Source of the DNA: Alcaligenaceae bacterium
Lineage (GTDB): Bacteria; Pseudomonadota; Gammaproteobacteria; Burkholderiales; Burkholderiaceae_B
Assembly: GCA_013416405.1 (NCBI GenBank)
Contig: JACCET010000007.1
Coordinates: forward strand, 1-64,000
Length of the DNA stretch: 64,000 nt
Direction: 5' to 3'
Within the stretch, counting starts at the first letter, position 1, and each line of letters begins with the position of its first letter. This document shows positions 19,023 to 21,008 of this stretch, piece by piece. A program made the position numbers and the translations under genes. The notes beneath the pieces are model-generated. The model was not told the DNA's origin. It searched no databases and saw only the letters and a program-made list of their open reading frames with translations.

Positions 19023-19679
19023 TTGGAACTAGATGGCCAATATAAAATTCATTGTTCCATTTATAAATCCAATGAAGAAGCGCAGTACAATTTCGCCGAT
19101 TTGTACAACACCACTGGAAGCAGAAGTATCTTGGCCACTACTAGAAGCAAACGCTGGAACGGCGAACTCAGTTCGCTGTCACCGGACTTCCTTAAGGAAG
19201 TCATAGAAAAAATGAATTCTTATGGGGATAGAATTCAGTTCGAAATGCCGCATAAAAAAAATCGTGTCCCCAGTTATCAAGTTATCAATGCCCGCGATCA
19301 GAAAATGGGCTTTGACGACAGGCACTTGCTGATGCGCCTGAATGAGGGCGGAAATATTGGCGAGGAAATGAGCACAACGTATTCGCTGCAAGCCATCAAG
19401 GCGGCACTCGCAAACGATGGCCGCAAGACGGTAAGCCGCAGCACGTCGTCTTCACGCTCTTCTTCGCCACGCTCGTCATCTTCCCGCGCACCCAGCGCTC
19501 CGGCAGTGCCCGTGGATACGATTGAGCAGGACAAGTACGCTTACTTCAAGGCGAATCGCGAGTTCCTACCCGATGGTATTACCAAGCACTCTCAAGACAT
19601 CAGTCAAATGATGCGAGGTGGTATGTCGGCCGAGCAGGCTTTCGACGCCATCATCAAGGCGCATTTCCAGGACGTCTGA
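19023..19679 (+). CDS. Hypothetical protein with a Ser-rich linker
   Basis: I do not recognise this protein. The open frame gives 218 residues from a TTG codon at 19023. It consists of a mixed N-terminal part (1-130), a Ser/Arg/Pro linker at about 137-165 (RSTSSSRSSSPRSSSSRAPS) and a compact C-terminal helix pair (ISQMMRGGMSAEQAFDAIIK). The start is doubtful: no good ribosome site precedes the TTG, while an ATG at 19033 with GGA upstream opens a different, short frame. That could mean a frameshift near the 5' end. The 5' part is AT-richer than its neighbours, which hints at transfer. Confidence 0.5.
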   Translation: MELDGQYKIHCSIYKSNEEAQYNFADLYNTTGSRSILATTRSKRWNGELSSLSPDFLKEVIEKMNSYGDRIQFEMPHKKNRVPSYQVINARDQKMGFDDRHLLMRLNEGGNIGEEMSTTYSLQAIKAALANDGRKTVSRSTSSSRSSSPRSSSSRAPSAPAVPVDTIEQDKYAYFKANREFLPDGITKHSQDISQMMRGGMSAEQAFDAIIKAHFQDV

Positions 19680-19744
19680 GCGGATTTGCCTTGTGCAGCT
19701 ACTGGCTGCATGCGTGGCATTTGGCCTTTACTGGTTCTTAAGGC

Positions 19745-19964
19745 TGTGCAGGAGGTTCAGGCAGGCCTGCGCTCGAATCGCTGCGATCCCGTCTGCGACG
19801 GGATTTCCCGCGGCGCAAGCCTCAAACGGGGCGTGCGCGAACTCGCCGGTGGACAGCAGTGCTGTCCACCCACCGGCTCGAACAGCGCGCACTTGCCTCC
19901 CCGTTTGAAGCTTCCCCCACGGCGCGCTCAAATCTCGCTCCGGCCCGCCTGAACCCCCTGCACA
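19745..19964. repeat. Large imperfect palindrome (about 220 bp)
   Basis: The outer arms TGTGCAGGAGGTTCAGGC (19745-19762) and GCCTGAACCCCCTGCACA (19947-19964) pair with one mismatch. Inner segments GCCTCAAACGGGG and CCCCGTTTGAAGC also pair, and the centre at 19848-19870 is a perfect palindrome with 11-base arms (GGTGGACAGCA). Short frames across it are repeat shadows. It resembles interspersed palindromic elements of Burkholderiales genomes; that is recollection, not a search result. Confidence 0.7.
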
Positions 19965-20126
19965 GTCAAGATTCCGGTAATCGCCGACTACACTTTTGGT
20001 GCGCCTGTGTCGTGCGTGCACGTGCTTTGCATGGCAAGGTCAGCTTAAGAAGGACATCGCAGACTGCCGACCAAGCCACGACAACGCCAACGCCCACGGA
20101 CATGGGCACAGTAAATGGATTATTAA

Positions 20127-20348
20127 AGACGTGGTGTCTGGCACTGGATAGAGCGGGATTCGAGCACGCCGCTGGCAGTGAGTTCATCGAGGATGCAAGG
20201 CCGCAACTGTTTGAGTGCGCGTTTTCGGGCCACTGGCCCGAGCGCACGAGTTTTGCGGCCGCCTCGATGGAGTCACTGACAGTGGGAAATCACGGCGCAG
20301 CCGGGATCGTGCGAGCTTCCGCGGCATCCAGTGCCAGACACCACGTCT
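20127..20348. repeat. Second large palindrome bounded by a perfect 23-bp inverted repeat
   Basis: The 23 bases at 20127-20149 (AGACGTGGTGTCTGGCACTG...) are the exact reverse complement of 20326-20348. Inside, GAGTTCATCGAGG pairs roughly with CCTCGATGGAGTC, and the centre is TCGGGCCACTGGCCCGA at 20225-20241. No gene is credible here. The interval 19965-20126 between the two palindromes shows nothing I can name. Confidence 0.75.
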
Positions 20349-20365
20349 CTTAAAAACCATAAACC

Positions 20366-20437
20366 GTGCCAAGGAATGAATAAAGTGCCAATGAACGAAT
20401 AACGTGCCAAGAAATTATCCACATCAACTGTGCATAA
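20366..20437. repeat. Three 19-bp direct repeats with two adjacent DnaA-box-like 9-mers
   Basis: GTGCCAAGGAATGAATAAA (20366-20384), GTGCCAATGAACGAATAAC (20385-20403) and GTGCCAAGAAATTATCCAC (20404-20422) follow without gaps. The third runs into TTATCCACA (20415-20423), and TGTGCATAA (20429-20437) is its inverted partner; both fit the DnaA-box consensus TTATNCACA. The layout resembles iterons beside DnaA boxes in replicon origins. It could instead be an operator region for the gene at 20628. The AT-rich remainder to 20627 holds nothing else I recognise. Confidence 0.5.
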
Positions 20438-20627
20438 CCCTGCGTATAACCCTATAGCATGTTGCGCAAACGTAATAAATATGCCGAATTCCGACCCATG
20501 CGCCATAAATGACCAGCACCCGTAACGCACAGTTTCCCCTGGACAAGACTCCCCACAGAATACGCTTGTACTCACCCCGGATGCTGTCATCATAAAAGCT
20601 CATCCATGGCAATAGAAAGGAGATTGC

Positions 20628-21008
20628 ATGCACAAACGAATCACCACCGCGATATCGGCCGGCCTGCTTGCCATCAGCATCACCGGAGCCGGCGTGGCAA
20701 TGGCCCAGCAACCTACGGCCCAGCCCAACGCGCCCATGAACGTACCCACACCCGACTACTCGGACGCCCAGCTGAAACGCTTTGTCAGCGCGTCGGAAAA
20801 GGTCGCCATGATTTCCCAGGAATACACGCCCAAGCTGCAGGCCAGCAAAGACGAGGTAGCCCAGAAAAAAATGTTCGAAGAAGCCGACCAGAAAATGGTC
20901 AAGGCTGTTCACGACGAAGGCATGACGGTTGACCAGTTCAACGGCATAAACCAGTCATTGCAACAAGACCCCAACCTGGTCAAGCGCGTACAAGAAATAG
21001 CGCAATAA
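20628..21008 (+). CDS. Exported DUF4168-domain protein
   Basis: 126 residues: a signal peptide (1-26, cleaved after GVAMA), then the DUF4168 domain (DYSDAQLKRFVSASEKVAMI, DEGMTVDQFNGINQSLQQDP). The domain is helical, periplasmic and of unknown function. AAAGGAG lies 6 bases upstream of the ATG. It is a single gene: the repeat cluster precedes it and a convergent gene follows. Confidence 0.85.
   Translation: MHKRITTAISAGLLAISITGAGVAMAQQPTAQPNAPMNVPTPDYSDAQLKRFVSASEKVAMISQEYTPKLQASKDEVAQKKMFEEADQKMVKAVHDEGMTVDQFNGINQSLQQDPNLVKRVQEIAQ

Follow-up and report, generated by a model that had tools for sequence, protein, structure and literature searches.

The sites that come closest to the element described here are the DnaA-reactivating (DARS) loci, which recharge the initiator protein DnaA by promoting ADP dissociation and so raise ATP-DnaA. 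In the literature we found, their experimental characterization is in E. coli, which has two of them, each a single locus. A DARS core contains three DnaA boxes at spacings that are identical in DARS1 and DARS2, box I having the opposite orientation to II and III, and it is the head-to-head arrangement of boxes I and II together with the equal spacing that defines the core (PMC5742627; PMC10380432). DARS1 has a regulatory flank of ~50 bp. It is active in vitro with no further factors supplied (PMC5742627). Conservation of the DARS2 core is described as specific to gamma-proteobacterial relatives of E. coli (PMC4245941), and reviews mention similar sequences in many proteobacteria (PMC10380432; PMC5742627). 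In the E. coli sequence, DARS1 (813107–813141) reads TAATACACA-TGG-TTATCCACA-GGAAT-AGTGGATAA and DARS2 (2969135–2969169) reads TTCTTCACA-ACT-CTATCCACA-GAAAA-GGTGAATAA. We infer from location and architecture that the trio between bioD and uvrB is the published DARS1; the location of DARS2 agrees with a published deletion primer, GAGGAAGGGGTGGATAGCCGTTT (PMC4585315), which adjoins the trio in the E. coli sequence. The literature searched yielded no report of DARS copies in the Alcaligenaceae or of oriented DARS sites; its coverage was incomplete, and earlier notice is possible.

The window analyzed here is a stretch of 64,000 nucleotides, part of a 209,891-bp contig from an Alcaligenaceae bacterium with a 3.66-Mb genome. 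The sequence-only reading of this DNA had pointed to three GTGCCAA repeats at 19-base intervals and an inverted pair of 9-mers 5 bp apart, and both patterns proved exact, with their coordinates confirmed. It had also called the 9-mers DnaA boxes, which was right but incomplete, as a third box on the same strand as box II, at 20441–20449, had been missed. The features of the DnaA-box element and its neighboring gene are as follows.

20414–20505, minus strand: complete dispersed element, facing dif; core with a conserved left flank of ~55 bp (family consensus TTGACCAnnGAACCnnAAnnCCGCGTGTTTATTGCGTTT...)
20415–20449, minus strand: DARS-like core, boxes III-II-I, TTATACGCA GGG TTATGCACA GTTGA TGTGGATAA
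20415–20423, plus strand: DnaA box I, TTATCCACA, in inverse orientation to II and III
20429–20437, minus strand: DnaA box II, TTATGCACA (TGTGCATAA on the plus strand)
20441–20449, minus strand: DnaA box III, TTATACGCA (TGCGTATAA in the window), one mismatch to TTATNCACA
20628–21008, plus strand: DUF4168 gene, downstream of the element (Pfam PF13767, E 4e-15)

Boxes III and II run in the same direction with a gap of 3 bp, and box I is inverted and lies 5 bp past box II; these spacings (3 bp for III–II, 5 bp for II–I) are common to the window, DARS1, and DARS2. The window element has the structure that defines a DARS core. Boxes I and II are perfect TTATNCACA sequences, compared with the single mismatch in box III. 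The inverted pair formed by TTATCCACA and TGTGCATAA, 5 bp apart, occurs once in the 64 kb, with 0.00 expected in shuffles. TTATNCACA alone is found twice in the window against 1.15 expected; therefore, it is the pairing that is non-random. A core matrix from which the orthologous copies were left out scored 47 bits at the window core and below 0 at the next best place in the window, and the element at 20414–20505 matched models R1 and R2 at 80.8 and 65.9 bits, respectively. A protein-coding reading of the element is not conserved, with stops in several copies.

For comparison with E. coli, a core matrix built solely from relatives of the window element was run over a control of ~104 kb (209,004 positions), including oriC, datA, and the dif region. 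DARS1 ranked first of all 209,004 positions with 25.7 bits; datA scored 13.4 bits and the DARS2 core 8.4, and oriC gave no match to the matrix. In a search of 14.5 kb, model R2 matched DARS1 with E 2.5e-6. In register, the DARS1 flank of ~70 bp fell in the top 0.06% of background, whereas the DARS2 flank did not.

Relatives were searched with positions 20350–20640 of the window. The block from TTATCCACA onward was present at the orthologous DUF4168 locus, where the element is kept upstream of the gene in several genera, and also at unrelated places in several genera; the dispersed copies align gap-free over 92 columns. The sequence-only reading had suggested an operator for the DUF4168 gene, and such a role is possible; it would be secondary, given that the gene is not adjacent to most copies. 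At a threshold of E ≤ 1e-7, R1, a model built on sequence only, matched ~100 copies in 53 of the 268 genomes of the family, with strong copies at one to six unrelated, apparently intergenic sites per genome. In an alignment of 91 copies, the core GGGTTATCCCCAGGGTTATTCACAGnnnnTGGGGATAAGT is strongly conserved, the ~55-bp left flank is moderately conserved, and nothing is conserved outside them. Box II differs from TTATNCACA at no more than one position in 91/91 aligned copies and box I at no more than two; the commonest form of box I is TTATCCCCA, which is a weak DnaA box, and box III is degenerate in most family members (two to three mismatches).

Two copies compared between G224 and G026, which are different species, are 92–93% identical, whereas the flanking DNA is ~76–86% identical, and this difference points to selection on the element. 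An empty-site comparison of the same two genomes placed the copies in larger variable stretches with no readable insertion boundary. Within-genome, lineage-specific subfamilies were found in three genomes (G003, G133, and G238), which shows that copies do spread by duplication. The core can also form tandem arrays, with six cores at ~160- to 260-bp spacing in G012, four in G123, and further arrays in genomes of genus g4. The G012 array (L208 9186–10200; G012:C1:1509185–1510199) holds its six cores within 1 kb, on the same strand and mostly ~160 bp apart. It lies near a hexapeptide-transferase gene (serine acetyltransferase-like), and the same gene is near a pair of cores in G008 (L196). Outside the family, a DARS-like core sits between hemE and priA in two genomes of two other families of the order (L195 5451–5956; L197 4777–4860).

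The family consensus gave only ~30-bp, chance-level matches in plasmids and phages, and matches to the IHF consensus in the flank were no better than in shuffles. An oriC-like cluster of DnaA boxes was sought beside dnaA in five family genomes (L198, L199, L201, L205, and L206), and one perfect TTWTNCACA box was the only one found. That box is TGTGGATAA, just upstream of dnaA.

The copies are oriented with respect to dif. We located dif by pattern and scored a copy as pointing toward it when its core end was the nearer one. Among strong copies on contigs with dif (E < 1e-7), 31/33 point toward it (P = 1e-7, a copy-level value that treats copies as independent, which related genomes are not), and the proportion is 47/53 when weaker copies are included. 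With one vote per genus, which is the safer figure, 12/13 point toward dif (P = 0.003). Most strong copies lie no further from dif than one third of the ori–ter half-distance, and in six single-chromosome or near-complete genomes (G002, G005, G021, G022, G123, and G233), all strong copies are within 0.56 of that half-distance. Both replichores of G021 and G022 carry copies, which converge on dif. Exceptions are strong copies at G019 C3:186173 and G033 C1:306237 and those of genus g24 (G026 and G224), where a contig that lacks dif has copies oriented toward each other. The orthologous copy of the window element in G002 faces dif. GC skew on the plus strand is negative throughout the window; therefore, the strand of the element is likely to be the leading strand. 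Local GC skew around 23 copies agrees with their orientation for most but not all of them.

We conclude that the DnaA-box structure is probably a DARS-like element, and the best reading of the dispersed copies is a multi-copy, terminus-proximal, polar DARS-like family. Several observations count against the DARS reading: the degenerate box III of most family members, the weak sequence that box I most often has, the lack of IHF-site enrichment in the flank, which sets the element apart from DARS2, the opposed copies of genus g24, and a polarity and copy number that the E. coli pair does not share. The element may release ADP from DnaA. In the proposed scheme, boxes I and II would be occupied head-to-head by DnaA-ADP, and the complex would be stabilized through box III; the ADP would then leave, and apo-DnaA, once released, would load ATP. 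The dosage of copies in the terminus half would rise relative to oriC only late in the round, and recharging would be delayed until replication is near completion; late-replicating, oriented copies would in this way couple the recharging of DnaA to the completion of a replication round. Polarity is not explained by the dosage scheme; it might stem from a clash of the fork with the bound complex in one direction of travel, from an additional function at the terminus, or from spread with a strand bias. More tentatively, the Alcaligenaceae could possess a strand-oriented, terminus-half DARS family in which either recharging or an orientation-dependent interaction of DnaA complexes with the fork is coupled to the end of replication.

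An alternative is that the copies are polar fork barriers or terminus-organizing sites akin to Ter/Tus, which forks moving toward dif would pass and which would hinder forks leaving the terminus. The near-uniform orientation on each replichore, the terminus-half location, and the one to six strong copies per genome, similar to Ter sites in number and layout, would all fit. We nevertheless consider this unlikely: the conserved core is a trio of DnaA boxes matching DARS1, the E. coli Ter consensus AGNATGTTGTAACTAA has 0 matches in the window at up to three mismatches, and no adjacent terminator gene was seen near the clusters examined. Tus, moreover, has been described for Enterobacterales and a few other groups (PMC8707476), and a few strong copies face the wrong way for a barrier (G019, G033, and G026/G224).

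A DnaA sink of the datA or titration type, which would lower free DnaA without reactivating it, is quite unlikely. DnaA boxes in several copies per genome, the tandem arrays of some genomes, and the partial match of datA to the core matrix noted above are consistent with a sink, but the head-to-head box I conserved at a fixed spacing is characteristic of DARS and is lacking from the aligned datA stretch, and titration alone would require neither fixed spacing nor polarity. The DnaA-titration site proposed in the sequence-only reading holds as far as DnaA boxes are concerned; what they form is a DARS-like three-box core rather than a plain titration site.

Orientation bias is known for elements that target the lagging strand, and the family could be a dispersed repeat with strand-biased insertion, its polarity a by-product of replication-strand targeting. 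The subfamilies within G003, G133, and G238 fit such an origin. We regard it as very unlikely, given that no terminal repeats or target duplications were identified, that the core is conserved across genera at the DUF4168 locus, and that the copies are more conserved than the DNA around them.

The 19-bp repeats lie at the edge of a large palindrome, with a second palindrome upstream.

19744–19965, no strand: second giant imperfect palindrome, 222 bp (z-score −8.5)
20105–20370, no strand: imperfect palindrome, 266 bp, the right end of which bears the 19-bp tandem repeat
20366–20415, plus strand: 19-bp tandem repeat, 2.6 copies (three GTGCCAA), abutting the DnaA-box element and outside it

Both palindromes sit between an upstream gene and the DARS-like element. 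The 266-bp palindrome has 52-nt arms that are 81% complementary, and the region folds as a single long hairpin (z-score −11.2) with the first GTGCC of the triple repeat as the base of its stem. GTGCCAA starts at 20366, 20385, and 20404, an exact 19-bp period with a triple span of 20366–20410; this three-copy pattern occurs once in the 64 kb, with 0.00 expected in shuffles. An Rfam search of 19500–20800 gave chance matches only. Partial copies of the 266-bp palindrome are found elsewhere in the source genome, and related internal palindromic segments occur in at least five other places there. The congener G003 has the same palindrome in the same place; one side of it bears 20-bp repeats that differ in sequence from those of the window, and the other side bears a perfect 19-bp duplication (L016 1704–1761 and 2002–2039). 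At the DUF4168 locus of that genome (L016 1660–1760), the DnaA boxes have given way to the palindrome with its repeats, and this copy of the element is lost. In a second copy of the palindrome in the source genome, the repeats at the same edge are 23 bp long and have a third, different sequence (L004 1741–1795). Palindrome copies thus carry 19- to 23-bp tandem repeats at their edges, the unit of which is unrelated from locus to locus. At the orthologous loci of four relatives (G001, G002, G021, and G023; L014, L015, L017, and L019), the boxes are kept and no such repeats lie beside them.

Because sister palindromes bear unrelated repeats at the same edge and relatives keep the boxes without repeats, the 19-bp repeats are locus-specific local duplications at a palindrome edge and not iterons. 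The triple repeat and the DnaA boxes, which had been read as one joined structure, are two separate ones. The best explanation is that the palindrome whose edge is the 19-bp repeat was inserted beside the DnaA-box element; the repeats might, as a guess, have arisen by slippage at the hairpin base. The 19-mers were also considered as IS21-like terminal repeats, a candidate rejected given that the locus has no transposase and palindrome edges account for the repeats. A relic iteron-type origin of a plasmid or phage, proposed on account of 19-bp periodic repeats beside DnaA boxes, is extremely improbable, as the 19-mer spacing pattern has no second occurrence in the 3.66-Mb genome and no plasmid or phage match, the eight neighboring genes tested have no Rep or DnaA domain, sister palindromes differ in their repeats, and the locus is chromosomal in the relatives that keep the element without them.

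A family with up to six cores in 1 kb (in one genome), located for the most part in the terminus half and almost always facing dif, would be a natural system for two questions: what makes the chromosomal position of DnaA-control sites important, and whether fork direction affects DnaA complexes. Its sequence could also guide searches for sites of this kind in other bacteria. If true, an oriented, terminus-half DARS family would mean that a single repeated DNA element connects the control of initiation with termination.

Compared with known systems, plasmid iteron origins share with the locus ~19-bp tandem repeats near DnaA boxes, but the locus has no rep gene or plasmid relatives, and its repeats belong to the palindrome. 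datA resembles the element as a cluster of DnaA boxes with two same-strand boxes 3 bp apart and differs in that the aligned stretch has no inverted third box at 5 bp. Like the family, Tus-Ter is oriented to the terminus on both replichores and clustered in the terminus half; its sequence is unrelated, with a Tus site where the family has DnaA boxes, and the family has no known fork arrest. DARS2 (rppH–mutH, 455 bp) has the same core orientation and spacing as the element but depends on IHF and Fis sites within a regulatory region of ~400 bp, whereas the element's flank shows no IHF enrichment. DARS1 (bioD–uvrB, 101 bp) shares the order III-II-inverted I, the 3- and 5-bp gaps, and a similar total length; of the two, DARS1 is the one with demonstrated ADP release. 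DARS1 differs in its better conserved box III and in being a single copy in E. coli that does not face dif. DARS1 and DARS2 are on opposite replichores and the same strand, so that one only faces dif; with two sites facing opposite ways relative to dif in E. coli, the polarity and copy number of the family are not DARS features.
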